Assembly: GCA_016789955.1 (NCBI GenBank)
Contig: JAEUPB010000099.1
Location: 1 to 63,237, forward strand
Origin: Rubrivivax sp.
Lineage (GTDB): Bacteria > Pseudomonadota > Gammaproteobacteria > Burkholderiales > Burkholderiaceae_C
Reading direction: 5' to 3'
Length of the DNA stretch: 63,237 nt
Under the pieces are notes generated by a model that had not been told where the DNA came from, did not search any database, and worked only from the letters and a program-made list of their open reading frames with translations. A program made the position numbers and the translations under genes. This document shows positions 35,278 to 52,092 of this stretch, one piece after another; within the stretch, counting starts at the first letter, position 1, and every line of letters begins with the position of its first letter.

Positions 35278-35931
35278 TCAGGCGTGCGCCTCGACCAGCA
35301 GCCCGCGCTGCTCGATGAACGACACCACGTCGGCGAGACCCGTGAGCGTCTTCAGGTTCGTCATCACGTAGGGCTTGCCGCCGCGCATGCGCCTGGTGTC
35401 GGCCTCCATCACCGCGAGATCGGCGCCCACGTGCGGCGCGAGGTCGGTCTTGTTGATGACGAACAGGTCGCTCTTCGTGATGCCCGGGCCGCCCTTGCGC
35501 GGGATCTTCTCGCCGGCGGCAGTGTCGATGACGTAGATCGTCAGGTCCGAGAGCTCGGGGCTGAAGGTGGCCGCGAGGTTGTCGCCGCCGCTCTCGATGA
35601 ACACGATGTCGGCCTGCGGGAAGCGCTCGAGCATGCGGTCCACCGCCTCGAGGTTGATCGATGCGTCCTCGCGGATCGCCGTGTGCGGGCAGCCGCCGGT
35701 CTCCACGCCCATGATGCGTTCGGCGGGCAGCGCGCCGGCCACCGTCAAGAGCCGCTGGTCCTCCTTCGTGTAGATGTCGTTGGTCACGACCACCAGGTCC
35801 CAGCGCTCGCGCATGGTCTTGCAGAGCATCTCGACCAGCGTGGTCTTGCCCGAGCCGACGGGGCCGCCGACGCCCACGCGCAGCGGCGGGAGCTTCTTGG
35901 TCCGGCCGGGGATGCGATGCAGCAGGGTCAT
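35278..35931 (-). CDS. ureG: Urease accessory GTPase UreG
   Basis: A 217-residue SIMIBI-class GTPase that powers nickel insertion into urease. The P-loop [13 protein letters not shown] lies at about 20-32; other motifs are [13 protein letters not shown] (with the nickel-binding CPH), [15 protein letters not shown] and the NKTDLAP base-recognition loop (about 160). The start codon overlaps the ureF stop (ATGA), so ureF and ureG are coupled. Confidence 0.97.
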
Positions 35932-36611
35932 GAGCGGAAGAGCCTCGAGTACTGGGTTTCGTGGCGCGCCGAGAGCAGCGCGAGTCCGGGGGTATAGGCC
36001 TGACGGGCGGTGTCGTCCATGGCCAGCGCGTCGTCCACCAACGGCGGCAGCGCCTCGGCCAGCGCGCCGAGCACGCGCTGGCCGGCAGTCTGGCCGAGCG
36101 GCACGGCCTTGAGCGCGGCCTGCACGAGGTTCTCGGCCCAGCCGAAGCCGTGGGCCAGCAGCGCGTCGCGCGCGGTGGCGCCGCTGCGCACCACCGCCAG
36201 CGCCCACGCCAGCGGCCAGGTCGGGGCCGGCGCCAGCGCGGCGAGCATGTCCACGCGGGCATCGCCGTCGCCGGAACCGGCCCGCAGCCACTCGAGCATC
36301 GAGCGGCCCATCTGCTCCGTCTGGCGCAACAGCTCCCGGCTCTCGCGCGTGCGGCGGTGCCAGTCGTTCAGGGCCGCGAGGCGCGGCGCGTCGGTCTGCC
36401 GCCATGCCGCCAGCGCCTGCGCCAACAGCGGCAGTTCCGAACGGCCGAGCGCCAGCGCCTGCTGGTCGAGCAGCCATCGTTGCGTGGTGGCCTCGTCGCC
36501 GACGAGTCCGGCCTCGATAACCGCTTCCAGCCCTTCGGAGTAGCTGTAGCCGCCCACCGGCAGCGCCGGCGAGGCGAGCCAGATCAGCTGCAGCAGCGTG
36601 GACGGTGTCAT
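35928..36611 (-). CDS. ureF: Urease accessory protein UreF
   Basis: A 227-residue all-helical accessory protein that gates UreG in the urease activation complex. The N-terminal [20 protein letters not shown] (LPVG-Y-YS motif) is diagnostic, as is the SEGLE segment that follows. It is the first gene of a ureF-ureG-ureD block separated from ureABCE by an oppositely oriented gene. Its ATG is only 44 bp from the start of that divergent gene, so a separate ureFGD promoter must lie in or overlap that space. Confidence 0.93.
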
Positions 36612-37780: not shown

Positions 37781-38386
37781 TCAGTGCTTGTGGTCGTGGC
37801 CGTGGCCATGGCCGTGGTCATGCCCGTGGCCGTGGTCATGGCGGTGCTCGTGGTGCCCATGGTCATGGTGATCGTGACCCTCGTGCCCATGCCCGTGGTC
37901 GTGATCGTGCGCATGATCGTGGGCATGGCCCCCGGCCGCATACGCGCCCGCCTCCGGCTCGAAGGCCTCCTGCGCCTCGCTGACGATCAGGTGCTGCCGG
38001 CGCAGCATGTCGGCCAGCACCGGGTCGGGCTCAAACTTCAGGTGATCGGGCCGCACCTCGAGCTGCACGTGGCGGTTGCCCAGGTGGTAGGCCGCGCGCA
38101 GCAGGTCGTGCGGCGAGCCGTGCTCGCTGCAGTGGCGCACCACCATCACGGCCTGCGGTGCCGCCTGCACGCGCACGAACGAGCCGTCCTCGGCCACCAG
38201 CACGTCGCCGCCGCGCACCACCGTGCCGCGGGCCAGGAACACGCCCAGGCGGCGGCCGGTGGAGTCGGTGGCTTCGAAGCGGCTCTTCTGCCGTGTGTCC
38301 CAGTCGAGCTCGACGCTCGCGGCGCGGTTGAGCAGCACCTTGGCCAGCCCGCGGCCCTGGGGGATGAGCTTGTCGATGGTCAGCAT
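37781..38386 (-). CDS. ureE: Urease nickel metallochaperone UreE with long His-rich tail
   Basis: About 201 residues. The two-domain UreE core (about 1-145) includes LLNRAASVELDWDTRQKSR, FLARGTVVRGGDVL and the AYHLGNRHVQ nickel site. The last 50 residues contain about 25 histidines, mostly in H-D, H-G and H-E pairs. This is longer than in many homologues and should bind several nickel ions for storage. The ATG at 38386 (MLTIDKLIPQ) matches the family start. It ends convergent with the dioxygenase fusion. Confidence 0.94.
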   Translation of the reverse strand: MLTIDKLIPQGRGLAKVLLNRAASVELDWDTRQKSRFEATDSTGRRLGVFLARGTVVRGGDVLVAEDGSFVRVQAAPQAVMVVRHCSEHGSPHDLLRAAYHLGNRHVQLEVRPDHLKFEPDPVLADMLRRQHLIVSEAQEAFEPEAGAYAAGGHAHDHAHDHDHGHGHEGHDHHDHGHHEHRHDHGHGHDHGHGHGHDHKH

Positions 38387-38443
38387 GGGGCGATTGTCGT
38401 CCACGCCCGATGGCCATCCGGCGCGCCGGCGCCGGCGCGGCGA

Positions 38444-40171
38444 TCAGAACAGGAAGTACCGCTGCGCCATCGGCAGCACCGTGGCCGGCTCACAGGTCAG
38501 CAGTTGCCCGTCGGCGCGCACGGCATAGGTCTGCGCATTGATCTCCATCTTCGGCAGGTAGGCGTTGTGCACCATCTGCCGCTTGGTCACGCCGCGCACG
38601 CCCTTGACCGCCGCCAGCTGCTTGTGCAGCCCGTAGCTCTCGGCCGTCCCTTGCGCCAGCGCGGCCTGGCTGACAAACGTCAGCGACCCGCGCGCCAGCG
38701 CGCCGCCGAACGCGCCGAACATCGGCCGCGCGTGCACCGGCTGTGGCGTCGGGATGCTGGCGTTGGCGTCGCCCATCTGCGCCAGCGCGATGAACCCCCC
38801 CTTCAGCACGAGGCTCGGCTTGACGCCGAAGTACGCCGGCTTCCACAGCACGAGGTCGGCCCATTTGCCCACCGCCACCGAGCCGACCTCGTGCGCGATG
38901 CCGTTGGCCAGCGCCGGGTTGATCGTGTACTTGGCCACGTAGCGCTTGATGCGCTCGTTGTCGTTGCGCTGCGAATCGCCCGGCAGCGCGCCGCGCTGCA
39001 CCTTCATCTTGTGCGCCGTCTGCCAGGTGCGCAGGATCACCTCGCCGACACGCCCCATCGCCTGGCTGTCGCTGCTCATCATGCTGATGGCACCCAGGTC
39101 GTGCAGCACGTCCTCGGCGGCGATCGTCTCGCGGCGGATGCGGCTCTCGGCGAAGGCCAGGTCCTCGGCGATGGCCGCGTCGAGGTGGTGGCAGACCATC
39201 AGCATGTCCAGGTGCTCGTCCACCGTGTTGGCGGTGTACGGCATCGTGGGGTTGGTGGAGCTGGGCAGGAAGTTGGCCTCGCCCACCACCTTCAGGATGT
39301 CGGGCGCATGGCCGCCGCCGGCGCCTTCGGTGTGGAAGGCGCAGAGCGTGCGGCCTTTCGTCGCCGCGATCGTGTCCTCGACGAAGCCCGATTCGTTCAG
39401 CGTGTCGGAGTGGATGGAGACCTGCGTGTCGGTCGCCTCCGCGACGCCCAGGCAGCAGTCGATGGCGCTCGGCGTCGTGCCCCAGTCCTCGTGCAGCTTC
39501 AGGCCGATGGCACCGGCATCGATCTGCTGGCGCAGCGCCTCGGGCCGGCTCGCGTTGCCCTTGCCGAGGAAGCCGAGGTTCATCGGGAACGCGTCGGCCG
39601 CCAGCAGCATGCGGCGGAGGTTCTCGGGCCCCGGCGTGCAGGTGGTGGCGAAGGTGCCGGTGGCCGGGCCGGTGCCGCCGCCGAGCATCGTCGTCACGCC
39701 CGAGGCCAGCGCCTCGTCGATCTGCTGCGGGCAGATGAAGTGAATGTGGCTGTCGATGCCGCCCGCGGTGACGATCATCCCCTCGGCCGCGATGACCTCG
39801 GTGCCCGGGCCGATGACGATGTCCACGCCCGGCTGCACGTCGGGGTTGCCGGCCTTGCCGATGCCGACGATGCGGCTGCCACGCAGCCCGATGTCGGCCT
39901 TGACGATGCCGCCGTGGTCGACGATCAGCGCGTTCGTGATCACGCAGTCCACCGCTTCGTGCGCGCCCGGGCCGTTGACCTGCTGGCCCTGGCCCATGCC
40001 GTCGCGAATGGTCTTGCCGCCGCCGAACTTCACTTCCTCGCCGTAGCCGCCGGCACGCAGCGTCAGGTCCTGCTCGACCTCGAGGATCAGTTCCGTGTCG
40101 GCCAGCCGCAGGCGGTCGCCGACGGTCGGGCCGTACATCTCGGCGTAGGCGCGGCGTCCGAGGGTGGCCAT
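38444..40171 (-). CDS. ureC: Urease subunit alpha
   Basis: The 575-residue catalytic subunit, which hydrolyses urea to ammonia and carbamate. Visible active-site segments are the nickel ligands in [14 protein letters not shown], the carbamylated lysine near residue 225 in [11 protein letters not shown], the [15 protein letters not shown] flap region (catalytic histidine near it) and the [13 protein letters not shown] aspartate ligand. All appear intact. The ATG at 40171 overlaps the ureB stop. Confidence 0.98.
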
Positions 40172-40479
40172 CACAAGGCTCCTTGAACGAGACCACGGAA
40201 GCCGTAGACGGTACGCGCCCCGGCGTAGTCCACGAGTTCCACCGTGCGCTGCTGCCCGGGCTCGAAACGCACCGCGGTGCCGCTGGCGATGTTCAGCCGC
40301 ATGCCGCGCGCGGCCGCGCGGTCGAAGGCGAGCGCGCCATTGGTCTCGGCGAAGTGGTAGTGCGAGCCGACCTGGATCGGCCGGTCGCCGCGGTTCTCCA
40401 CCACCAGCGTGGCGGTGCGCCGCCCCGGGTTCAGCGGAAGGCTCGCGGCGTCGTCGGTCAGCAGTTCGCCCGGGATCAT
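40171..40479 (-). CDS. ureB: Urease subunit beta
   Basis: A 102-residue structural subunit of the urease (alpha-beta-gamma)3 complex. [10 protein letters not shown] at the start and [11 protein letters not shown] (about 38-48) are diagnostic. It lies 41 bp after ureA and overlaps ureC by one base pattern (ATGA). Subunits are separate genes, as usual for proteobacteria. Confidence 0.97.
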
Positions 40480-40520: not shown

Positions 40521-40823
40521 TCATGCAATGGGTTGGTGCACAGTCACCAATTTGGTGCCATCCGGAAAGGTCGCCTCGACCTGGATCTCGGGAATCAGCT
40601 CGGGTACGCCGTCCATCACGTCGGCGCGTGCCAGCACCTGCCGGCCGGCACTCATCAGCTCGGCCACCGAGCGGCCGTCGCGCGCGCCTTCGAGGATCGC
40701 CGCTGTGATGAAGGCGGTGGCCTCGGGCACGTTGAGCTTCAGGCCGCGGGCGCGCCGGCGCTCGGCCAGCAGCGCGGCGGTGAAGATCAGCAGCTTGTCC
40801 TTCTCGCGCGGGGTCAGGTCCAT
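40521..40823 (-). CDS. ureA: Urease subunit gamma
   Basis: A 100-residue structural subunit, the normal length. [20 protein letters not shown] at the start, then [10 protein letters not shown] and the C-terminal [18 protein letters not shown] are diagnostic. It is the first gene of the ureABCE block. Its start is 46 bp from the GTG of the divergent permease-kinase gene, so the two promoters share a short region. Confidence 0.97.
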
Positions 40824-40869
40824 CGTGCGGGCACCGTAAGCAATCCGGCGGCCATGTTATGCGCCGCTG

Positions 40870-43800
40870 GTGCGGATCTTGTATTGGTACTGGTCCGTGA
40901 GCCTGGCACCCCCCGCCCCCCAACGCGTCGTCAAGGCCCGGCGCGACTACAACGCCTGGGTCGCCCGCGAGTCGATGGAGGACTACGCGCTGCGTTTCAC
41001 GCCGCACGGCTTCCGACGCTGGAGCGCCTGGCGGGTGGCCAACACGGCCTTTGGCGCGGCTTCGTTCCTGGTGCTCGAGGCCGTGGGCGCCACGCTGCTG
41101 GTGCAGTACGGGTTCACCAATGCGCTGTGGGCGATCCTCGCCACGGGCCTGATCATCTTCGGCGCCGGCTGGCCGGTGAGCGTCTATGCGGCACGTCACG
41201 GCGTCGACATGGACCTGCTGACGCGCGGGGCCGGCTTCGGCTACATCGGCTCGACGATCACCTCGCTGATCTACGCGAGCTTCACCTTCATCTTCTTCGC
41301 ACTCGAGGCCGCGGTGATGGCCTACGCGCTCGAACTCGCCTTCGACATCCCGCCGGCCTGGGGCTACCTGATCTGCGCGCTGGTGGTGATCCCGCTGGTG
41401 GCCCACGGCGTGACCGCGATCTCGTGGCTGCAGGTGTGGACGCAGCCGATGTGGATCGTGATGCTGGTGCTGCCCTACCTCTACGTCTGGAAGCACAACC
41501 CGGGCGTGTTCGAGGGCGTGCTGCACTACGGCGGCGAGCATGGCGTCGGCGCCGGTTTCGATGCGCGGGCCTTCGGCGCGGCGCTGACGGTGGGCATCGC
41601 GCTGATCACGCAGATGGGCGAGCAGGTCGACTATCTGCGCTTCATGCCGGCGGCCAAGCCCGGGACGACCGGCCGCGTCGGCTGGTGGGCGGCGGTGATC
41701 GTCGGCGGCCCCGGGTGGGTGATCCCCGGCGTGCTGAAGATGCTGGGCGGCGCGCTGCTGGCCTACCTGGCCATCACTCTGATGGTGCCGCCCGAGCGCG
41801 CGGTGGACCCGAACCGCATGTACCTCGCCGGCTACGAGTACGTGACGAGCCACTACGGCTGGGCGGTGGCGCTGACGGCGACCTTCGTCGTCGTGTCGCA
41901 GCTCAAGATCAACGTCACCAACGCCTATGCGGGGTCGCTCGCGTGGAGCAACTTCTTCTCGCGCCTGACCCACGCGCACCCCGGCCGTGTCGTGTGGATG
42001 GTGTTCAACACCGCCATCGCGCTGGTGCTGATGGAGATGAACGTCTTCAACGCGCTGAGCCACGTGCTGGGGCTGTACGCCAACGTGGCCATCGCCTGGA
42101 TGATGGCGGTGGTGGCCGACCTCGTCGTGAACAAGCCGCTCGGCTGGTCGCCACCGGGCATCGAGTTCCGCCGCGCGCACTTGTACGACATCAACCCGGT
42201 CGGCGTCGGTGCGATGGGCATCGCGTCGGCGCTCTCGGTCACGGCGCACCTGGGCGTGTTCGGCGACTGGGCGCAGGCCTACTCGGCGATGATCGCGCTG
42301 GTCACCGCCTTCGTCGCCTCGCCGCTGATCGCCTGGGCCACGCGCGGCCGCTATTACCTGGCGCGGCGGGTGATCCCGATCGCGCCGAAGCCCATGGCCA
42401 CCGAGGCCACCGCCGCACAGGACGGCACCTACCGCCGGCTGACCCGCTGCTGCGTCTGCGAGCGCGAGTACGAGGCGCCCGATGTCGCCCAGTGCCCCGC
42501 CTACCAGGGCCCGATCTGCTCGCTGTGCTGCACGCTGGACGCGCGCTGCGACGACCTGTGCAAGCCCGACGCGCGCCTGTCGGCGCAGTGGACGGCTGCG
42601 CTGCGCCGGCTGCTTCCGCGGCGCATGTGGCCGCAGCTCGATGCCGGCCTGGCGTCGTTCCTGCTGACGATGGTGGTGGTGACGCCGGCGCTGGCGGTGC
42701 TGATGGCGCTGGTGCACGGGCTGATCGCGCGCTCGCTGGCCGCGGCCGGCCCGCAGGCTGCCGAGTGGCTGCCGATGGCGCGCGAGGCCTTCTTCGCCGC
42801 GTACTTCCTGCTGCTGGTGGTTGCCGGCGTGGTGGCGTGGTGGCTGGCGCTGGCGCAGCACAGCCGCCGCGCCGCGCAGGAAGAGTCGAACCGCCAGACC
42901 GAGGCACTGAACCGCGAGATCGAGTCGCACCGCCGCACCGACGAGCAGTTGCAGAAGGCGCGCCGCGAGGCCGACCGCGCCAACCAGGCCAAGAGCCGCT
43001 ACATCACGACGATCAGCCACGAGCTGCGCACGCCGCTGAACAGCATCCTCGGCTACGCGCAGCTGCTGGAGGAAGACGACGCGATGCCCGCGCACCGACG
43101 CCAAGCGGTGAGCGTGATCCGCCGCGGCGGCGACCACCTGCTCGGGCTCATCGAGGGCACGCTGGACATCGCGCGCATCGAGTCGGGCAAGCTCACGCTG
43201 GAGACGCGGCCGATGCGCTTCGCCGACGGCATGGCCGAGCTGGCGCGCATGTTCGAGCTGCAGGCCGCCGGGCGCGGCATCGGCTTCCGCTTCGAGGTCG
43301 AAGGCACGCTGCCGCCGGTGGTGCGTGCCGACGAGAAGCGGTTGCGGCAGATCCTCATCAACCTGCTGGGCAACGCCGTGAAGTTCACCCAGCAAGGCCA
43401 CGTGTGCCTGCGCGTGCAGCACCAGCGCGAGATGGCGCGCTTCGAGATCAGCGACACCGGCCCGGGCATGGACGAGGCCGAGCTCGCGCGCGTGTTCGAG
43501 CCTTTCGAGCGCGGCAGCGCGGCCAGTGGCCACTCGGTGGGCAGCACCGGCCTGGGCCTGACGATCGCGCGCATGCTGACCGCGCTGATGGGCGGCGAGA
43601 TGCAGGTGGCCAGCACGCCGGGCGCGGGCACCACGTTCACGATCCGGCTCTTCCTGCCCGAGGTGACCGGTGCACTACCCGAGCTGCTGGCATCGCCGGG
43701 CGGCCACGGCCACACCGGCTATGCCGGCCCGCGCCGCACCGTGTGGGTGGTGGACAACGAGGAAGCCGACCGCCGCCTGCTGCGCGACGTACTGGAGCCG

Positions 43801-44406
43801 CTCGGCTTCCAGGTGCGTACCGCCGGCAGCGGCGAGGAAGCGCTGGCGATGGCCGGCGAGACCGGCGACCGTGCCGATGCGCTGCCGGACGCGCTGTTCA
43901 TGGACCTGGCGATGCCCGGCATCGACGGCTGGGAGACGCTGCGCCGGCTGCGCGCGCGGGGCTGGACGATGCCGATGGCGGTGGTCTCGGCCAACGCCTT
44001 CGACCGCAAGCTCGACAACCCGGTCGGCCTGCCGCCCGAGGACTTCATCGTCAAGCCGGTGAGGCTGACCGAGCTGCTCGACTGGCTGGGCAGGCGGCTG
44101 GCGCTGCAGTGGATCGCCGCGCCGCGCAGGGCCGCACCGGCCGCACCCCCGGCACGCGAGCGGGCCGCAGCCGCGCCGCCCCTGCCCGACCGCGCCCGGC
44201 TGCAGGCGCTGCTGCAGGCCGTGACGCTGGGCCACGTGCGCGGCATCGGCCGTGCGCTCGATGCCATCGAGGCCGACGACGCCGCCCACGCGGCCTTCGT
44301 CGAGCCGCTGCGCGCGCTGGCCCGCCAGTACCGCTACGACGCCATGACCGACGCGCTGCGGCGCGCGCTCGGCGACCCTCCGCTGGAACCCCGCCATGCC
44401 GCCTGA
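40870..44406 (+). CDS. NCS1-type permease fused to a hybrid histidine kinase/response regulator
   Basis: About 1178 residues. The first 510 form a multi-helix membrane domain resembling NCS1 purine/cytosine/allantoin/hydantoin permeases. A cysteine cluster follows (about 526-562; CCVC, then CSLCC and two more cysteines) that could bind zinc or a cofactor. Two further helices (about 592-618, 641-663) lead to a coiled coil, HisKA with H717 (ISHELRTPLNS), HATPase (about 815-935) and a receiver with D1012 (LFMDLAMPG). A short helical C-terminal domain ends the protein. The GTG at 40870 is the longest start; a GTG at 40897 is possible. Next to urease and urt genes, it probably senses a nitrogen compound. 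Confidence 0.88.
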   Translation: MRILYWYWSVSLAPPAPQRVVKARRDYNAWVARESMEDYALRFTPHGFRRWSAWRVANTAFGAASFLVLEAVGATLLVQYGFTNALWAILATGLIIFGAGWPVSVYAARHGVDMDLLTRGAGFGYIGSTITSLIYASFTFIFFALEAAVMAYALELAFDIPPAWGYLICALVVIPLVAHGVTAISWLQVWTQPMWIVMLVLPYLYVWKHNPGVFEGVLHYGGEHGVGAGFDARAFGAALTVGIALITQMGEQVDYLRFMPAAKPGTTGRVGWWAAVIVGGPGWVIPGVLKMLGGALLAYLAITLMVPPERAVDPNRMYLAGYEYVTSHYGWAVALTATFVVVSQLKINVTNAYAGSLAWSNFFSRLTHAHPGRVVWMVFNTAIALVLMEMNVFNALSHVLGLYANVAIAWMMAVVADLVVNKPLGWSPPGIEFRRAHLYDINPVGVGAMGIASALSVTAHLGVFGDWAQAYSAMIALVTAFVASPLIAWATRGRYYLARRVIPIAPKPMATEATAAQDGTYRRLTRCCVCEREYEAPDVAQCPAYQGPICSLCCTLDARCDDLCKPDARLSAQWTAALRRLLPRRMWPQLDAGLASFLLTMVVVTPALAVLMALVHGLIARSLAAAGPQAAEWLPMAREAFFAAYFLLLVVAGVVAWWLALAQHSRRAAQEESNRQTEALNREIESHRRTDEQLQKARREADRANQAKSRYITTISHELRTPLNSILGYAQLLEEDDAMPAHRRQAVSVIRRGGDHLLGLIEGTLDIARIESGKLTLETRPMRFADGMAELARMFELQAAGRGIGFRFEVEGTLPPVVRADEKRLRQILINLLGNAVKFTQQGHVCLRVQHQREMARFEISDTGPGMDEAELARVFEPFERGSAASGHSVGSTGLGLTIARMLTALMGGEMQVASTPGAGTTFTIRLFLPEVTGALPELLASPGGHGHTGYAGPRRTVWVVDNEEADRRLLRDVLEPLGFQVRTAGSGEEALAMAGETGDRADALPDALFMDLAMPGIDGWETLRRLRARGWTMPMAVVSANAFDRKLDNPVGLPPEDFIVKPVRLTELLDWLGRRLALQWIAAPRRAAPAAPPARERAAAAPPLPDRARLQALLQAVTLGHVRGIGRALDAIEADDAAHAAFVEPLRALARQYRYDAMTDALRRALGDPPLEPRHAA

Positions 44407-45376
44407 CACCCCCGCCCCCGACCCGATCGACGCGCTGCCGCCGAACGCCGACGTCGTGCTCGTCGTGGACGACGTGCCCGACAACATCGCGCTGCTCAAC
44501 GACGCGCTCGACGAGGCCGGCTACACGGTGATCGTGGCCACGCATGGCGACGCCGCGCTGCAGCTCGCGGCCCGCGCGCTGCCCGACATCGTGCTGCTCG
44601 ACGCGGTGATGCCGGGACTGGACGGCTTCGACGTGGCGCGGCGGCTGAAGGCCGACCCGCGCACCGCGTCGATCCCCATCGTGTTCATGACCGGCCTCAC
44701 CGAGACCGAACACGTGGTGGCGGCCTTCGCCGCCGGTGGCAGCGACTACGTGACCAAGCCGATCCGGCCCAAGGAGGTGCTGGCGCGCATCGCCGCGCAC
44801 CTGCGCAGCGCGCGCACGCAACGCCAGGCGCGCAATGCGCTCGACGCCTTCGGCCACGCGACGATGGTGGTGCGCGAGCGCGACGGCCGGCGCATCTGGC
44901 AGACCACGCTGGCGCGCACGCTGCTGGCCGAGTTCTTCGGCAGCGAGGACACCACGCCACCCGAACTCACAGCGTGGGTCGCACGCGAGGCGCTGCGCCG
45001 CCGCGCCGGCGCCGACCCGCACACGCTGACGCTCGCCCGCGGCCGCCGCCGCATCACGTTCGCGCTGCACGAGATGCCCGAGGAATCGCTCGAGGAAGGC
45101 AGCGACGGCGAGTGGCTCGTCGTGATGCGCGAGACCGACGACGACGCCGTCGTCGAAGCGGTGATGCTGGCCTTCAAGCTCACCGCCCGCGAGGCCGAGG
45201 TGCTGTACTGGGTGGTGAAGGGCAAGACCAACCGCGACATCGGCGACATCCTCGGCACCAGCCCGCGCACGGTCACCAAGCACCTCGAGCATGTGTTCGA
45301 GAAGCTCGGTGTCGAGACGCGCACGGCGGCGGCGGCGATGGTGATGCAGCGGGTGCGGGAACTCGGGCGCGGTTGA
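44396..45376 (+). CDS. Response regulator with REC and LuxR-type HTH
   Basis: A 326-residue regulator overlapping the permease-kinase gene by 11 bp. The receiver (about 20-138) has VVDD near its start, the phospho-acceptor in IVLLDAVMPG (about 63) and TKPI with the conserved lysine. A middle region (about 145-260) of unclear fold precedes the NarL/LuxR helix-turn-helix (about 262-318, LTAREAEVLYWVVKGKTNRD). It should receive phosphate from the NCS1-kinase and control nearby urea genes. An 18-bp inverted repeat upstream of urtA is a candidate binding site. Confidence 0.9.
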   Translation: MPPDTPAPDPIDALPPNADVVLVVDDVPDNIALLNDALDEAGYTVIVATHGDAALQLAARALPDIVLLDAVMPGLDGFDVARRLKADPRTASIPIVFMTGLTETEHVVAAFAAGGSDYVTKPIRPKEVLARIAAHLRSARTQRQARNALDAFGHATMVVRERDGRRIWQTTLARTLLAEFFGSEDTTPPELTAWVAREALRRRAGADPHTLTLARGRRRITFALHEMPEESLEEGSDGEWLVVMRETDDDAVVEAVMLAFKLTAREAEVLYWVVKGKTNRDIGDILGTSPRTVTKHLEHVFEKLGVETRTAAAAMVMQRVRELGRG

Positions 45377-45456: not shown

Positions 45457-46455
45457 ATGACATCGCTGCCCACCCTTCGTCCGCTCGGCCGCTCCGGCCT
45501 GAACGTCGCCCCGCTGGCCTTCGGCGGCAACGTGCTGGGCTGGACCGCCGACGAAGCGACATCGTTCGCCGTGCTCGATGCGTTCGTCGAGAGCGGCTAC
45601 AACCTCATCGACACCGCCGACGTGTACTCGCGCTGGGCGCCGGGCCACCAGGGCGGCGAGAGCGAGGCCGTGATCGGGCGCTGGCTGAAGGCGCGCGGGC
45701 CGGCGCTGCGCGATCGCGTCCTCGTCGCCACCAAGGTCGGGATGCCGATGGACGACGAAGGCAGCGGCCGGGGCGGGCTGTCGCGGCGCTGGATCCGCCA
45801 GGCCGTGCACGACTCGCTGGCCCGCCTGCAGGTGGAGCGCATCGACCTCTACCAGGCGCACAAGGACGACCCTGGCACGCCGCTGGAGGAAACGCTCGGC
45901 GCCTTCGCCGAACTGATCGCCGAGGGCAAGGTGCGCGCCATCGGCGCCAGCAACTACACCGCGGCGCGCATGGCCGAGGCACTCGCGACGAGTGCGCGGC
46001 TCGGCCTGCCGCGGTACGAAAGCCTGCAGCCGCACTACAACCTGATGGAGCGCGCAGATTACGAGGTGACGCTCGAGCCGCTCGTGCGGAAGGAACAGAT
46101 CGGCGTCATCAACTACTTCGCGCTGGCGCGCGGCTTCCTGACCGGCAAGTACCGCAGCGAGGCGGACCTGGGCAAGAGCGTGCGGGGTGGCGGCGTGAAG
46201 GCGTATCTCGATGAACGTGGCCACGCGGTGCTCGGCGCGCTGGACGCCGTGGCGGCCGAGCATGGCGACGAGCGCGCGACGCCGGCCCAGGTGGCGCTGG
46301 CCTGGCAGATGGCGCGCGACGGCATCACCGCGCCCATCGCCAGCGCCACGTCGGTGCCCCAGTGGCAGGAGCTGGCCGCCGCCGCGCGCCTGACGCTCAC
46401 GCCGGCGCAGATCGCGCGACTCGACGCCGCCAGCCGCCCACCCGCAGCGGCCTGA
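45457..46455 (+). CDS. Aldo/keto reductase
   Basis: A 332-residue NADPH-dependent TIM-barrel reductase. The catalytic set is visible: aspartate and tyrosine in NLIDTADVYS (about 50-58), lysine in VATKVG (about 90) and histidine in LYQAHKDDP (about 132). The family name covers many aldehyde and sugar substrates and the sequence does not fix one. It lies between the response regulator and urtA on the same strand, but with 80 and 100 bp gaps, so membership in the urea regulon is uncertain. Confidence 0.9.
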   Translation: MTSLPTLRPLGRSGLNVAPLAFGGNVLGWTADEATSFAVLDAFVESGYNLIDTADVYSRWAPGHQGGESEAVIGRWLKARGPALRDRVLVATKVGMPMDDEGSGRGGLSRRWIRQAVHDSLARLQVERIDLYQAHKDDPGTPLEETLGAFAELIAEGKVRAIGASNYTAARMAEALATSARLGLPRYESLQPHYNLMERADYEVTLEPLVRKEQIGVINYFALARGFLTGKYRSEADLGKSVRGGGVKAYLDERGHAVLGALDAVAAEHGDERATPAQVALAWQMARDGITAPIASATSVPQWQELAAAARLTLTPAQIARLDAASRPPAAA

Positions 46456-46474: not shown

Positions 46475-46492
46475 ATACGTCATGTGTCGTAT
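46475..46492. promoter_or_regulatory. 18-bp inverted repeat upstream of urtA (candidate operator)
   Basis: ATACGTCA-TG-TGTCGTAT: the arms match at 7 of 8 positions. It lies 66 bp before the urtA start codon. Its TACG-type arms and size suit a NarL/LuxR-family dimer, so the regulator at 44396 is the obvious candidate. Binding is inferred. Confidence 0.5.
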
Positions 46493-46557: not shown

Positions 46558-47826
46558 ATGACCCAGAGCCGCCGTACCTTCGCGCTCCAGACCCTCGCCG
46601 CCGCGCTCGCCGCCGGCGGCATCACCTACGCCCACGCCCAGGAGACCATCAAGGTCGGCGTGCTGCACTCGCTGTCGGGCACGATGGCGATCTCCGAGAC
46701 GGTGCTCAAGGACACCGTGCTGATGGCGATCGACGAGATCAACGCCAAGGGCGGCGTGATGGGCAAGAAGCTCGAGCCGGTGGTGGTGGACCCGGCGTCG
46801 AACTGGCCCCTCTTCGCCGAGAAGGCCAAGCAGCTGATCAGCCAGGACAAGGTGGCGGTGGTGTTCGGCTGCTGGACCAGCGTGTCTCGCAAGAGCGTGC
46901 TGCCGGTGTTCGAGCAGACCAACAGCCTGCTCTTCTACCCCGTGCAGTACGAGGGCGAAGAGCTCAGCAAGAACGTGTTCTACACGGGTGCCGCGCCGAA
47001 CCAGCAGGCCATCCCGGCCGTCGAGTACCTGATGAGCAAGGACGGCGGCTCGGCCAAGCGCTGGGTGCTGCTGGGTACCGACTACGTCTACCCGCGCACC
47101 ACCAACAAGATCCTGCGTGCCTTCCTGAAGAGCAAGGGCGTGGCCGAGGCCGACATCATGGAGGAGTACACCCCCTTCGGCCACTCCGACTACCAGAGCA
47201 TCATCGCCAAGATCAAGAAGTTCTCCAGCGAAGGCAAGAAGACCGCCGTCGTCTCTACCATCAACGGCGACTCCAACGTGCCCTTCTACAAGGAACTGGG
47301 CAACCAGGGCCTGAAGGCCACCGACGTGCCGGTGGTGGCGTTCTCGGTGGGCGAGGAGGAACTGCGCGGCGTCGACACCAAGCCGCTGCAGGGCCACCTG
47401 GCCGCGTGGAACTACTTCATGAGCCTGAAGAACCCGGCCAACGACGAGTTCACCAAGAAGTGGGCCGCGTACGCCAAGGCCAAGAACATCGCCGGCCACA
47501 AGGACAAGCCGCTCACGAACGACCCGATGGAGGCCACCTACATCGGCATCTACATGTGGAAGCAGGCGGTGGAGAAGGCCAAGAGCACCGACACCGACAA
47601 GGTCATCGCCGCGATGGCCGGCCAGACCTTCAAGGCGCCGAGCGGCATCACGTCCAAGATGGACGAGAAGAACCACCACCTGCACAAGAGCGTGTTCATC
47701 GGCGAGGTCAAGGCCGACGGCCAGTTCAACGTGGTGTGGAAGACCCCCGGCCCGGTGAAGGCCCAGCCCTGGAGCCCGTTCATCCCCGAGAACAAGGGCA
47801 AGAAGGACGAGCCCACGAAGGGTTGA
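46558..47826 (+). CDS. urtA: Urea ABC transporter substrate-binding protein
   Basis: A 422-residue periplasmic receptor for urea. The N-terminus has a twin-arginine-like SRRTFALQTL motif before a hydrophobic stretch ending AHAQ (about 28), so Tat export is possible. The mature protein starts ETIKVGVLHSLSGTMAISE, typical of UrtA, and includes VFGCWTSVSRKSVLPVFE and NGDSNVPFYKEL. AGGAGG precedes the ATG by about 8 nt. It heads the urtABCDE operon and is preceded by the 18-bp inverted repeat. Confidence 0.96.
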   Translation: MTQSRRTFALQTLAAALAAGGITYAHAQETIKVGVLHSLSGTMAISETVLKDTVLMAIDEINAKGGVMGKKLEPVVVDPASNWPLFAEKAKQLISQDKVAVVFGCWTSVSRKSVLPVFEQTNSLLFYPVQYEGEELSKNVFYTGAAPNQQAIPAVEYLMSKDGGSAKRWVLLGTDYVYPRTTNKILRAFLKSKGVAEADIMEEYTPFGHSDYQSIIAKIKKFSSEGKKTAVVSTINGDSNVPFYKELGNQGLKATDVPVVAFSVGEEELRGVDTKPLQGHLAAWNYFMSLKNPANDEFTKKWAAYAKAKNIAGHKDKPLTNDPMEATYIGIYMWKQAVEKAKSTDTDKVIAAMAGQTFKAPSGITSKMDEKNHHLHKSVFIGEVKADGQFNVVWKTPGPVKAQPWSPFIPENKGKKDEPTKG

Positions 47827-47836
47827 TGCGGCCGAC

Positions 47837-49402
47837 GTGACTCGGATCGGACGACGCGTGCGCGGCTTGCGGGGGTGGCTGCTATGTGGTCTGTCGCTGC
47901 TGTGGCCCCTGTGGGCCGCGGCGCTGACGGACACGCAGCGCACCGCCATCGCCGCGGGTGACAACGACGCCCGCATCGCGGCGCTGCAGGAGCGCGTGAC
48001 GGCGGCCGATCCAGACCTCGGTCCGTTCGTGAAGGCCCTGCTCGCCGACGAGGTGAAGCTCGCCGGCGGCAAGGCCGTGGTGCTGCAGGCCGGACAAGCC
48101 GCCCCCGACGGCGCCGAGGACGTCGTCATCAACAACCGCCTGCGCCGCGAGCTGGAAGGTGCGCTGGCGGGCCTGGCATTGCTCTCGAAGGACCGTGCCG
48201 AGCGTGCGAAGGCCATTGCCGAGCTCAAGGATGTCGACGAGGCGCAGCTGCCGCTGCTCGAGAAGGCACTGGCCGCCGAGACCGATGCAGAGCTGAAGCC
48301 CCGGCTCGCGCGCCTGCGTGCCGCGGCGCTGATCGCCTCGCCCGACCGCGCCAAGCGGCTGGACGCCGCGAAACTGCTCGGCGAGAGCAGCGACCCCGCC
48401 ACGCGCTCGCTGCTGCTCGAACGGCAGGCGCAGGAGACCGACGACGGCGTCAAGGCCGCGCTGGCCGCCGCGGCCGATCGCGTGCAGCAGCGGCTGGCCT
48501 GGGGCGAGCGGCTCGGGCTGCTGTTCACCGGCATCAGCCTGGGCTCGGTGCTGTTGCTGGCCGCGCTCGGCCTGGCCATCACCTACGGGCTGATGGGCGT
48601 GATCAACATGGCGCACGGCGAGCTGATGATGATCGGCGCCTACGCCACGTGGATGGTGCAGAACCTGTTCCGCGCGAAGTTCCCCGGCGCCTTCGACGCC
48701 TACGTGCTGGCGGCGATCCCGGCGTCGTTCCTCGCCGCGGCGCTGGTGGGCGCGGTGATCGAGCGCACCGTGCTGCGCTGGCTGTACGGCCGGCCTTTGG
48801 AGACGCTGCTGGCCACCTGGGGCATCAGCCTGATGCTGATGCAGGCCGTGCGCTCGACCTTCGGCGCGCAGAACGTGGCCGTGGAGAACCCTTCGTGGCT
48901 CTCCGGCGGCGTGGCAGTGCTACCCAACCTCACGCTGCCGTACACGCGGCTGGCGATCCTCGCCTTCGCCACGCTGGTGCTGCTGGGCATGGCGCTGCTG
49001 ATCGCGCGCACGCGCCTGGGCCTGTTCGTGCGCGGCGTCACGCAGAACCGGCGCATGGCGTCGTGCCTGGGCGTGGACACCGCGCGCGTCGACACGCTGG
49101 CCTTCTCGCTGGGCGCCGGCATCGCGGGCCTGGCCGGCTGCGCGCTGAGCCAGATCGGCAACGTCGGCCCCGACCTCGGGCAGAGCTACATCGTCGACTC
49201 GTTCATGGTCGTCGTCACCGGCGGCGTGGGGCAGCTGGCCGGGGCGGTCTACGCCGGGCTCGGCCTGGGCGTGCTGTCGAAGGTGCTCGAAGGGTGGCAG
49301 GGCGCGGTGCTGGCCAAGATCATCGTGCTGCTGCTGATCGTGGCCTTCATCCAGAAGCGCCCGCAGGGCCTGTTCGCGCTCAAGGGGCGGAGCGTCGAGT
49401 GA
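47837..49402 (+). CDS. urtB: Urea ABC transporter permease UrtB
   Basis: A 521-residue permease. After a signal-like N-terminal segment it has an extracytoplasmic helical domain of about 200 residues, which is characteristic of UrtB and absent from related LivH permeases. The membrane part (about 225-515) contains ITYGLMGVINMAHGELMMIGA, a LivH-type motif. The start is a GTG 10 bp after urtA; its stop overlaps the urtC start. Confidence 0.94.
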   Translation: MTRIGRRVRGLRGWLLCGLSLLWPLWAAALTDTQRTAIAAGDNDARIAALQERVTAADPDLGPFVKALLADEVKLAGGKAVVLQAGQAAPDGAEDVVINNRLRRELEGALAGLALLSKDRAERAKAIAELKDVDEAQLPLLEKALAAETDAELKPRLARLRAAALIASPDRAKRLDAAKLLGESSDPATRSLLLERQAQETDDGVKAALAAAADRVQQRLAWGERLGLLFTGISLGSVLLLAALGLAITYGLMGVINMAHGELMMIGAYATWMVQNLFRAKFPGAFDAYVLAAIPASFLAAALVGAVIERTVLRWLYGRPLETLLATWGISLMLMQAVRSTFGAQNVAVENPSWLSGGVAVLPNLTLPYTRLAILAFATLVLLGMALLIARTRLGLFVRGVTQNRRMASCLGVDTARVDTLAFSLGAGIAGLAGCALSQIGNVGPDLGQSYIVDSFMVVVTGGVGQLAGAVYAGLGLGVLSKVLEGWQGAVLAKIIVLLLIVAFIQKRPQGLFALKGRSVE

Positions 49403-50517
49403 ACAGGTCGTTGCTCGGCGCCAAGGGATGGACGGGCGTGGCCGCGGCGCTCGCCGTGCTGGTCGTGCTGATCCCGCTCACCGCGCTCGTCGTGCCCGCC
49501 GACAGCGCCTTCCACCTCGGCGAGTTCTACGTCAGCCTGCTCGGCAAGATCCTCTGCTACGCGATCTGCGCGCTGGCGATGGACCTGATCTGGGGCTACA
49601 CCGGCATCCTGTCGCTGGGCCACGGCCTGTTCTTCGCGCTGGGCGGCTACGGCATGGGCATGTACCTGATGCGGCAGATCGGCCGCGAGGGGCAATACAA
49701 GTCCGACATGCCCGACTTCATGGTGTTCCTGAACTGGAAGCAGTTCCCGTGGCACTGGGGGCTCTCCGACTCGTTCGTCGGGCAGCTGCTGCTGGTGGTG
49801 CTGGTGCCCGGCGTGCTGGCCTTCGTGTTCGGCTACTTCGCGTTCCGCTCGCGCATCAAGGGTGTGTACTTCTCGATCATCACGCAGGCCCTCACCTACG
49901 CCGCGATGCTGCTGTTCTTCCGCAACGAGACCGGCTTCGGCGGCAACAACGGCTTCACCGACTTCAAGCGCATCCTCGGCATCCCGATCAACACGCCGCA
50001 GATGCGCGTGTTCCTGTGCGTGCTGACCGGCGTGGTGCTGGTCGCTCTGTTCCTGATGTCGCGCGCCATCGTGCAGAGCAAGGCCGGCCGCGTGCTGCAG
50101 GCGATCCGCGACGCCGAGAGCCGCGTGATGTTCACCGGCTACGACCCGCTGGCCTACAAGCTGGCGATCTGGACGCTGTCGGCGGTGATGTGCGCGATCG
50201 CCGGCGCGCTCTACGTGCCGCAGGTGGGCATCATCAACCCGAGCGAGATGAGCCCGGCGGCCAGCATCGAGATGGCGATCTGGGCCGCGGTGGGCGGGCG
50301 CGGCACGCTGATCGGGCCGATCGTCGGCGCGGTGTTCGTCAACGGCGCCAAGAGCTGGTTCACGGTGGCGTTCCCGGAGTTCTGGCTCTACTTCCTCGGC
50401 TTGCTGTTCATCGCGGTGACGCTGTTGCTGCCGAATGGACTGGTCGGCCTGCTGCGCAGACCGGGGGGCCTCATCGGCCTGCTGCGCCGACGCGGCAGCG
50501 AGGACCGCAAGGCATGA
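49399..50517 (+). CDS. urtC: Urea ABC transporter permease UrtC
   Basis: A 372-residue LivM-type membrane permease partnering UrtB. GYTGILSLGHGLFFALGGYGMGMYLMR (here cut to GILSLGHGLFFALGG, about 63-77) and the AWAAVGGRGTLIGPIVGA-like region near 300 are family marks. It starts with a GTG overlapping the urtB stop (GTGA) and its stop overlaps the urtD start (ATGA). It ends with a basic Leu/Arg-rich tail. Confidence 0.94.
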   Translation: MNRSLLGAKGWTGVAAALAVLVVLIPLTALVVPADSAFHLGEFYVSLLGKILCYAICALAMDLIWGYTGILSLGHGLFFALGGYGMGMYLMRQIGREGQYKSDMPDFMVFLNWKQFPWHWGLSDSFVGQLLLVVLVPGVLAFVFGYFAFRSRIKGVYFSIITQALTYAAMLLFFRNETGFGGNNGFTDFKRILGIPINTPQMRVFLCVLTGVVLVALFLMSRAIVQSKAGRVLQAIRDAESRVMFTGYDPLAYKLAIWTLSAVMCAIAGALYVPQVGIINPSEMSPAASIEMAIWAAVGGRGTLIGPIVGAVFVNGAKSWFTVAFPEFWLYFLGLLFIAVTLLLPNGLVGLLRRPGGLIGLLRRRGSEDRKA

Positions 50518-51398
50518 CGCCCGACCTGATGGAAGCCGGCGCGCAGCGGCGCGCGGCGCTCGAGGCCAAGGCGGCGCAGCAGACCGGCGGCTCCGGCGGG
50601 CGCTCCGCCAGCTTCGGCCGCGTGGCACGCCAGGGCGAGCCCGACTTCACGCACGGCGTGGCGCTGTACGTCGACGGCCTCACCGTCTCGTTCGACGGCT
50701 TCAAGGCGCTGAACGACCTGAGCCTGTCGATCGACGTCGGCGAGCTGCGCTGCATCATCGGCCCCAACGGCGCGGGCAAGACGACGATGATGGACTGCAT
50801 CACCGGCAAGACGAAGCCCGACGCCGGCAAGGTGTACTTCGGCTCCACCATCGACCTGCTGCGCGCCAGCGAGACCGAGATCGCCGAGGCCGGCATCGGC
50901 CGCAAGTTCCAGAAGCCCACCGTCTACGAGCCGCTGTCCGTCTACGAGAACCTCGAGCTGGCGCTGCGCGCCGACCGGCGCGTGTTCTCCACGCTCACCT
51001 GGAAGGCCGGCGGCGCCGAACGCGCGCGCATCGACGAGCTGCTCGTGCTGATGAAGCTCGAGGGCGAGGCGCACCGCGCCGCCGGGCTGCTGAGCCATGG
51101 GCAGAAACAGTGGCTCGAGATCGGCATGCTACTCGCCCAGGACCCCAAGCTGCTGCTGCTCGACGAGCCGGTGGCGGGCATGTCCGACGAGGAGACCGAG
51201 CGCACGGCCGAGCTGTTCCTGAGCCTCGCGGGCCAGCACTCGCTGGTGGTGGTGGAGCACGACATGACCTTCGTGGCCGCGCTCACGCAGGGCAAGCGCA
51301 AGGTGACCGTGCTGCACGAGGGCCGCGTGCTCGCCGAAGGGCCGCTGGCGCAGGTGCAGGAGAACCCCGCGGTCATCGAGGTCTACCTGGGACGATGA
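50514..51398 (+). CDS. urtD: Urea ABC transporter ATP-binding protein UrtD
   Basis: A 294-residue LivG-type ATPase with an N-terminal extension of about 45 residues before the ABC domain. Walker A is GPNGAGKTTMMD (about 84), the signature region LLSHGQKQWLEIGM (about 188) and Walker B LLLLDEPVAGM (about 210). The SHGQKQ form of the signature is usual for UrtD. Confidence 0.95.
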   Translation: MTPDLMEAGAQRRAALEAKAAQQTGGSGGRSASFGRVARQGEPDFTHGVALYVDGLTVSFDGFKALNDLSLSIDVGELRCIIGPNGAGKTTMMDCITGKTKPDAGKVYFGSTIDLLRASETEIAEAGIGRKFQKPTVYEPLSVYENLELALRADRRVFSTLTWKAGGAERARIDELLVLMKLEGEAHRAAGLLSHGQKQWLEIGMLLAQDPKLLLLDEPVAGMSDEETERTAELFLSLAGQHSLVVVEHDMTFVAALTQGKRKVTVLHEGRVLAEGPLAQVQENPAVIEVYLGR

Positions 51399-51399
51399 C

Positions 51400-52092
51400 A
51401 TGCTGAATGCCGACGGCATCAACCAGTACTACGGCGGCAGCCACATCCTGCGCGACCTGTCGCTGCAGGCGCCGGCGGGCGAGATCACGGTCGTGCTCGG
51501 CCGCAACGGCGTCGGCAAGACGACGCTGCTGAAGTGCCTGATGGGCGTGGTGGCGGTAAAGACCGGAACCGTGAAGCTCGACGGGCAGGACATCACGCAC
51601 GCCACGCCGTACCAGCGCGTACGCGCCGGCATCGGCTACGTGCCGCAGGGGCGCGAGATCTTCGGCCGCCTGACGGTGATGGAGAACCTGCGCATGGGCC
51701 TGGCCAGCCGCCCCGCCGGCACGCCGGTGCCCGACGAGCTGTTCGAGCTGTTCCCCATCCTCAAGCAGATGATCGGCCGCCGCGGCGGTGACCTCTCCGG
51801 CGGGCAGCAGCAGCAGCTGGCCATCGCCCGCGCGCTGGCCGCGGGCCCGAAGGTGCTGATCCTCGACGAGCCCACCGAGGGCATCCAGCCGAGCATCATC
51901 AAGGACATCGGCCGCGTCATCCGCCACATCGCCCGCACCAAGGGCATGGCGGTGATCCTCGTCGAGCAGTTCTACGACTTCGCCGAGGAACTGGCCGACC
52001 GCTACGTGCTGATGGAGCGCGGCGAGGTCGTGATGCGCGGCCTGGGCAAGGACATGCCGGCCGACGGTGTGCGGCAGCGCATGGCGATCTGA
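51400..52092 (+). CDS. urtE: Urea ABC transporter ATP-binding protein UrtE
   Basis: A 230-residue LivF-type ATPase, the last urt gene, starting 2 bp after urtD. Walker A is GRNGVGKTTLLK (about 34), the signature LSGGQQQQLAIARAL (about 131) and Walker B VLILDEPTEGIQP (about 153). The segment GYVPQGREIFGRLTV is typical of the family. Complete UrtA-E implies high-affinity urea uptake feeding the nearby urease. Confidence 0.95.
   Translation: MLNADGINQYYGGSHILRDLSLQAPAGEITVVLGRNGVGKTTLLKCLMGVVAVKTGTVKLDGQDITHATPYQRVRAGIGYVPQGREIFGRLTVMENLRMGLASRPAGTPVPDELFELFPILKQMIGRRGGDLSGGQQQQLAIARALAAGPKVLILDEPTEGIQPSIIKDIGRVIRHIARTKGMAVILVEQFYDFAEELADRYVLMERGEVVMRGLGKDMPADGVRQRMAI

Follow-up and report, generated by a model that had tools for sequence, protein, structure and literature searches.

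A hybrid histidine kinase with an NCS1-like permease domain, a probable urea sensor beside urease and urea importer genes

Histidine kinases fused to a transporter are known from very few transporter families, to which an NCS1 branch would add one. CbrA, CrbS (MxtR) and RpuS are SLC5-STAC kinases (PMC7918813, PMC13022988 and PMC9100948, in the sections available to us), and the LuxR-type regulator CrbR requires an inverted repeat at its promoters (PMC5715377, available in part). In Ks-Amt5, an ammonium transporter domain serves as the sensor of a kinase (PMC5764959, in excerpt). Here we describe a fusion of different make-up, encoded in a 63,237-nucleotide stretch of Rubrivivax sp. DNA (GenBank assembly GCA_016789955.1, contig JAEUPB010000099.1; the whole stretch is hereafter called the window), in which a permease related to the NCS1 transporters is continuous with a hybrid histidine kinase and is adjoined by a response regulator gene. 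This fusion is real and conserved, and adds an NCS1 version to the transporter-fused kinases; no earlier description of an NCS1-kinase fusion was found in the open-access literature. We assign a probability of about 0.68 to its being a transporter-derived sensor kinase for urea that activates the importer genes urt.

In general plan, the system is like CbrA, CrbS and RpuS: a LeuT-fold secondary transporter is fused to a histidine kinase, with the regulator adjoining. As in CrbS/CrbR, so far as the available sections describe it, a LuxR-type regulator is accompanied by an inverted repeat at promoters. The window protein differs from the CbrA type in that its transporter part is NCS1, not a solute/sodium symporter, and in that a cysteine-rich module and a two-helix hairpin occupy the place of STAC and PAS. 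Ks-Amt5, as excerpted, likewise represents a nitrogen-nutrient transporter domain turned kinase sensor, but it has the Amt/Rh fold, lacks a receiver and has ammonium as its ligand. The fusion and its regulator comprise the following features.

40870..44406, + strand: NCS1 permease, Cys-rich module, two transmembrane helices and hybrid histidine kinase in one frame of 1178 amino acids (aa); probable start GTG 40897
40972..42339, + strand: NCS1-fold membrane domain, residues about 35-490
42448..42561, + strand: Cys-rich module, residues 527-564, eight conserved Cys
42637..42867, + strand: two-helix hairpin, residues about 590-666
42988..43656, + strand: HisKA (His717) and HATPase_c, by Pfam
43741..44082, + strand: receiver domain, Asp1012, by Pfam
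44396..45376, + strand: response regulator, REC and LuxR-type helix-turn-helix, by Pfam; 11 bp overlap with the kinase gene

In the 1178-aa frame, a Pfam scan places HisKA at residues 707-773, HATPase_c at 821-929 and the receiver at 958-1071, each over its cut-off; with these domains and their catalytic residues the protein is a hybrid histidine kinase. Among the 167 copies of 1000-1300 aa, the range to which this count was limited, the catalytic residues of kinase and receiver are kept in 165 to 167, and we therefore regard the fusion as a maintained protein. Pfam gave no PAS or HAMP match in the window protein and nothing between permease and HisKA, no STAC model having been sought by name. 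Because most homologue alignments begin only at about residue 10-16 of the frame, translation probably starts at the GTG at 40897.

Residues about 35-490 have a predicted LeuT-type fold closest to those of CodB and Mhp1 (mean predicted local distance difference test score, pLDDT, of the model 79.5). Profile comparison by hhalign gave 99.9 against NCS1, 98.6 without the nearest four, and 3.1 against solute/sodium symporters; classification of the protein as a solute/sodium symporter kinase was rejected on this last value and on the absence of an SSF match. A sequence-only reading of this DNA had proposed a full NCS1-like permease, a cysteine-rich cluster, two further helices and a hybrid kinase in one polypeptide with a regulator adjoining. 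It had named Mhp1 as the structure for comparison and staked its proposal in part on the membrane domain being NCS1-like, and all of this is borne out by the Pfam domains, the predicted fold and hhalign. The window protein differs from CodB and Mhp1, which it resembles in predicted fold and by profile kinship, in its kinase fusion, its Cys module, its lack of a Pfam match and an invariant Lys in place of the Na2-site Thr.

That Lys is one of a set of invariant residues, given here in the numbering of alignment A1 (add 14 for numbering in the open reading frame, ORF). Gln234, Glu237, Gln238, Asp240, Arg243, Lys332, Asn334, Asn337 and Tyr339 are invariant over 119 rows, and Glu132 is kept in 118 of 119. 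We compared these positions through chained alignments with the sodium-site residues Thr278 and Thr279 and other residues of CodB and Mhp1 (PMC9379551, in the sections available). Lys332, found in all 119 copies, stands at the place of CodB Thr278, the place of Thr279 is Ile in 118 of 119, Phe128 aligns with CodB Trp108, and Glu132 aligns with Mhp1 Gln121. In ORF numbering, the pocket residues that align with those of CodB and Mhp1 are Glu146, Gln248, Glu251, Gln252 and Lys346. Since the Na2-site Thr278 place holds an invariant Lys, the alignments suggest that CodB-like sodium coupling was lost in the fusion family. The same Lys occurs in stand-alone copies, so it does not distinguish sensor from carrier. 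As for specificity, ORF residue 412 in TM10 (transmembrane helix 10), the best of 276 columns, is Gly in 62 of 65 amide rows and non-Gly in 35 of 40 urea rows; a urea/amide switch there is only a lead, as a sign test on independent pairs gave P = 0.25.

Two stand-alone permeases carry the Cys module, which we therefore assign to the permease rather than to the kinase. One (L211, 544 aa) is divergent from a fusion and is followed by fmdA and amiE; the other (L225, 528 aa) lies downstream of ureABCEG and has a partly degenerate module. L225 passes the PF02133 cut-off (31.6 against 23.5 bits) and L211 does not. Nine cysteines were counted within residues 527-564 of the window protein, of which 527, 530, 542, 550, 553, 554, 560 and 564 are invariant in alignment A3 (25 rows), the first six also in 167 full-length copies; by its pattern, the module would be zinc-ribbon-like. 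C-terminal of it lie hydrophobic helices at about 590-628 and 633-666. In a predicted model of residues 505-785 (pLDDT 87, predicted template modelling score 0.54) they form a hairpin whose second helix runs unbroken into the kinase dimerisation helix. GacS is the sole structure match at E <= 0.001 for this Cys/hairpin/DHp model, and as only kinase structures were matched, we claim no fold for the Cys module.

The sequence-only reading had called an NCS1 fusion much less familiar than the symporter type, which holds for the open-access literature; the protein itself is common, with matches in 114 of 200 genomes of the family (weak in G029, G065, G176 and G188). Beyond the family, matches were found in 19 of 369 genomes of the class and, at 1e-10, in 54 of 398 of the phylum, a few of these being weak, partial or stand-alone. 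For matches from the genome searches, wide regions were taken for a part, giving 99 counted copies; L226, a repeat of L068, was dropped, and L296 was counted once. In the wide loci, 175 of 179 copies exceed 700 aa, the rest being a split gene, a copy at a contig edge and the two stand-alone permeases. A separate locus set holds the best 80 of 538 matches (68-81% identity), and its members are therefore all close kin. In its permease part, the Rubrivivax gelatinosus protein is 84% identical to that of the window.

When copies were labelled by marker genes within 10 kb, at thresholds that we set ourselves, 87 of the 179 were labelled urea, 66 amide, two both and 24 neither. Among the 138 copies with at least 7 kb on both sides, 66 have urea genes, 60 have a formamidase, amidase or amide-type ABC transporter, one has both and 11 have neither. 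The search for other fusions and their neighbours, which the sequence-only reading had proposed, thus returned urea or short-chain amide genes for most copies. In the close clade, a divergent ureA lies within 1.5 kb in 53 of the 73 loci having 2 kb upstream. Amide-type loci encode a formamidase (FmdA), an aliphatic amidase (AmiE), AmiS/UreI and an UrtABCDE-like set (about 40-55% identity). The fusion shares its gene neighbourhoods with the UrtABCDE and FmdDEF importers. By comparison, 19 of 20 loci of plain NCS1 permeases lack ure, fmdA, amiE and amiS matches, some having weak matches to ABC or kinase parts of a generic kind; L266 has such markers because a fusion is present there. On a quick tree of 122 rows, which included every fourth row of the genome-contig matches, the labels require eight changes, and urea/amide allegiance has therefore switched repeatedly.

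Parts of such gene sets have been reported. An amide-type five-gene ABC set lies beside formamidase and amidase in Bradyrhizobium japonicum (PMC3098086), and the available sections of the reports on urea and short-chain amide ABC importers do not treat the kinase. For Dechloromonas (D. aromatica), a histidine kinase of 1131 aa and a receiver are tabulated next to UrtA (PMC2907700), and in Pseudomonas/Ectopseudomonas a second urtABCDE is described as adjoining genes for a hybrid kinase and a LuxR regulator (PMC13296017); in the available sections of neither paper is a permease part mentioned. The other features of the window locus are listed below.

35281..35883, - strand: ureG, TIGR00101 match inside frame 35278-36477
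37781..38404, - strand: ureE
38444..40174, - strand: ureC
40171..40479, - strand: ureB
40521..40823, - strand: ureA, transcribed divergently to the kinase gene and separated by 73 bp from GTG 40897
40839..40883: pair of sigma54-like sites, both imperfect (9 of 12 letters), at 40839-40854 (-, facing ureA) and 40868-40883 (+, facing the kinase gene)
45457-46455: aldo/keto reductase gene, between regulator and urtA
46476..46491, + strand: palindrome TACGTCATGTGTCGTA, operator-like, differing at one position from TACGYC-N4-GRCGTA and lying 66 bp upstream of the urtA ATG
46558..47826, + strand: urtA, urea ABC transporter binding protein, TIGR03407, 603.6 bits against a cut-off of 492.75
47837..49402, + strand: urtB, TIGR03409
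49405..50517, + strand: urtC, TIGR03408; frame start not fixed
50661..51398, + strand: urtD, TIGR03411; frame start not fixed
51400..52092, + strand: urtE, TIGR03410

Each gene from urtA to urtE (46558-52092, +) either scores above its curated cut-off or lies in the frame where it was expected. The fusion had been placed between ureABC and urtABCDE; urea genes do lie on both sides, but the aldo/keto reductase gene, which has no explained tie to urea, separates regulator from urtA.

Many promoters of urtA and of amide-ABC genes carry the palindrome TACG-N8-CGTA. With no motif preset, the commonest inverted repeat was TACGTC-N4-GACGTA in 18 of 58 amide-ABC|kinase gaps and TACGCC-N4-GGCGTA in 20 of 35 stretches before urtA, against at most two in shuffled sequences for each; a looser palindrome occurs in 33 of 58 and 21 of 35, respectively, but in 0 of 59 ureA|kinase gaps. 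The combined pattern TACGYC-N4-GRCGTA occurs 44 times in 3,333,217 bases, always within 600 bp of a matched start of urtA, kinase or fmdA, and is not found in 391,306 bases of control loci; among 66 one-mismatch sites, five have no listed gene nearby. A stricter pattern, ATACGYCANNYGRCGTA, was found in 29 of 100 genomes, compared with 3 for the reversed pattern. Of its 32 places 30 were examined, and 27 of these lie before urtA, amide urtA/kinase or fmdA/kinase, although at least 7 of the 30 are loci used to learn the palindrome. Among the 100 genomes, the operator is present in 25 of 57 with the fusion and in 4 of 43 others (P = 1.4e-4 by Fisher's exact test, kinship ignored).

We found that the promoter-proximal arm base tends to follow residue 294 of the neighbouring regulator. 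Before urtA the combinations are Lys with C (20), Lys with G (4), Asn with T (4) and His with C (2), and Thr294 regulators, the window's included, have arm base A in four of five cases. Over both gap sets, Lys regulators have 20 C and 1 T arms and Asn regulators 2 C and 28 T (P = 5.9e-11 by Fisher's exact test, kinship ignored); the single Lys/T pairing comes from L074, a locus with two regulators. Asp294 regulators, contrary to the rule, have mixed arms. This covariation ties the neighbouring regulator to the palindrome.

A different signal appears upstream of the kinase. We searched for sigma54-like sites with what we take to be the consensus, fixing GG and GC and accepting 9 of 12 letters. 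Such sites occur in 57 of 59 ureA|kinase gaps (after shuffling, 7.75 on average and 13 at most) and in 39 of 58 amide gaps (after shuffling, 14.25 on average and 20 at most); the window site at 40868-40883 has no GC in its -12 part. Before urtA, candidate sites were rejected (10 of 35; shuffled mean 8.9, maximum 13). Given an excess in the ureA|kinase gaps and none before urtA, we propose a circuit with two inputs.

From this material we infer the ligand, the signal path and the direction of regulation as follows. Urea, the likely ligand of the window copy, or a close carbamoyl compound would bind the central pocket of the NCS1-fold domain, and the resulting movement would be relayed to the kinase by the C-terminal permease part, the Cys-rich module and the hairpin, whose helix 2 is predicted to be continuous with the dimerisation helix. 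This movement would change autophosphorylation of His717. Phosphate would reach the internal receiver, the REC-LuxR regulator directly, or both, and the regulator would bind the palindrome upstream of urtA and activate the genes of the ABC importer for urea. Through sigma54-type promoters in the ureA|kinase gap, urease and sensor would be made only under nitrogen limitation; the importer would then require nitrogen shortage in addition to urea. Relatives would have this module set to short-chain amides (formamide, acetamide). The sequence-only reading had the fusion control both uptake and hydrolysis; the palindrome before urtA favours the former, while the case for direct control of ure by the regulator is weaker: none of 59 ureA|kinase gaps has a strict site, although 10 of the 66 one-mismatch sites fall in such gaps. 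The commonest inverted repeat of those gaps was rejected as a candidate (it occurs in 3 of the 59, and in up to 2 after shuffling).

Several results count against this reading. NCS1 kinship rests on fold prediction and profile-profile comparison: PF02133 has no match at E <= 1 in the window protein and none in its genome, so that we file the domain as a distant NCS1 branch rather than a Pfam member, and searches of PDB sequences with the protein and the family profile returned no CodB, Mhp1 or other relative. Neighbouring genes indicate a pathway, not the ligand of the permease domain, and of the 24 copies without markers 11 have both flanks present. The strict palindrome is found in 0 of 59 ureA|kinase gaps, the T-type is missing from 25 of 58 amide gaps, and four genomes (G027, G048, G062, G080) have the operator and no fusion match. 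Four alphaproteobacterial T294 regulators go with C-type arms, contrary to the covariation rule. In the window, one-mismatch matches are not above chance (6 against 6.24 expected), and a pattern tailored to the window occurs once in its genome against three times for the reversed control.

Other readings give the membrane domain a different role. It is possible, though rather unlikely, that the domain still carries urea while the kinase reads the transport cycle, making the protein a second, low-cost importer as well as a sensor. The conserved transporter core would fit, as would kinase-less copies in amide and urease gene sets, one of them (L211) in a locus with neither a UrtA match nor an ABC importer, and CbrA both transports and signals (PMC7096432 and PMC13022988, in the available sections); yet with Lys at the Na2-site place CodB-like sodium coupling is improbable, and Ks-Amt5, a comparable fusion, is able to bind without carrying (PMC5764959, in excerpt). 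We think it less likely still that the permease is a mere anchor or partner dock, the signal being read by the Cys module (redox or metal, e.g. nickel) or through contact with the urea ABC transporter. Urease requires nickel, and eight invariant Cys lie in a module on the cytoplasmic side. When highly expressed, CbrA retains signalling after loss of its transporter domain (PMC7918813, in the available sections). Against an anchor, however, the module also accompanies formamidase and amidase as partner enzymes instead of urease, and is present in the two kinase-less permeases (partly degenerate in L225), and the positions that line the pocket equal the cysteines in invariance.

The classical NCS1 substrates that the sequence-only reading had named (purine, cytosine, allantoin or hydantoin) are unsupported as ligands, because the family's neighbours are urea or short-chain amide genes. 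The fold would suit such a ligand, and the breakdown of allantoin ends in urea, but 60 of the 138 well-flanked copies have formamidase, amidase or amide-type ABC genes in place of urea genes (no search was aimed at hydantoin or allantoin genes), and neither formamide nor acetamide arises in those pathways; we consider this reading very improbable. If instead the fusion is a urea sensor, the substrates of NCS1 proteins would extend to a class quite unlike nucleobases (urea, small amides), and a likely urea/amide sensor would be named for a large part of the Burkholderiales, and for other Pseudomonadota as well, with a predicted operator and regulon provided here. The stand-alone permeases would be candidates for a new kind of urea/amide carrier. 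More tentatively, there may be a widespread separate class of NCS1-derived urea/amide receptors, acting as sensors when fused to a kinase and as sodium-independent carriers when alone (L211, L225), with regulator and operator co-evolving and circuits swapped several times.

Some individual loci depart from the common arrangement. In a far clade (L075, L076, L077, L248, L249), the regulator is REC-EAL (by Pfam in L075 and L077, by similarity in the others), so the output of the sensor can differ, and urea/amide sensing may feed cyclic-di-GMP there. The L075 fusion, the only far-clade copy with a C-terminal part scanned, has no internal receiver, and a large LuxR-type gene is divergent in this clade. 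L223 and L224 (G335) are longer fusions (1210-1261 aa), L223 with PAS domains, with no urea/amide marker within about 8 kb or more per side and no matching regulator downstream. A match in G051:C23 lies within a 2134-aa open frame, far longer than other copies, and in G062:C3 an operator precedes urtA and the regulator shows 49% identity, but there is no fusion match. L074 (G145, 4.3-15.7 kb) holds urea-type and amide-type fusions in tandem, some 7 kb apart, each with a regulator; its close-clade copy L074_7315 is labelled amide only through the adjacent second, amide-type system. In L266 (G001), fusion and regulator are followed at a distance of a few kb by the gene of a plain PF02133 permease, beside urease genes. 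The window's own genome also contains a frame of 1110 aa that includes a solute/sodium symporter domain (G000:C28:63971-65173), possibly a kinase of the CbrA/CrbS type.
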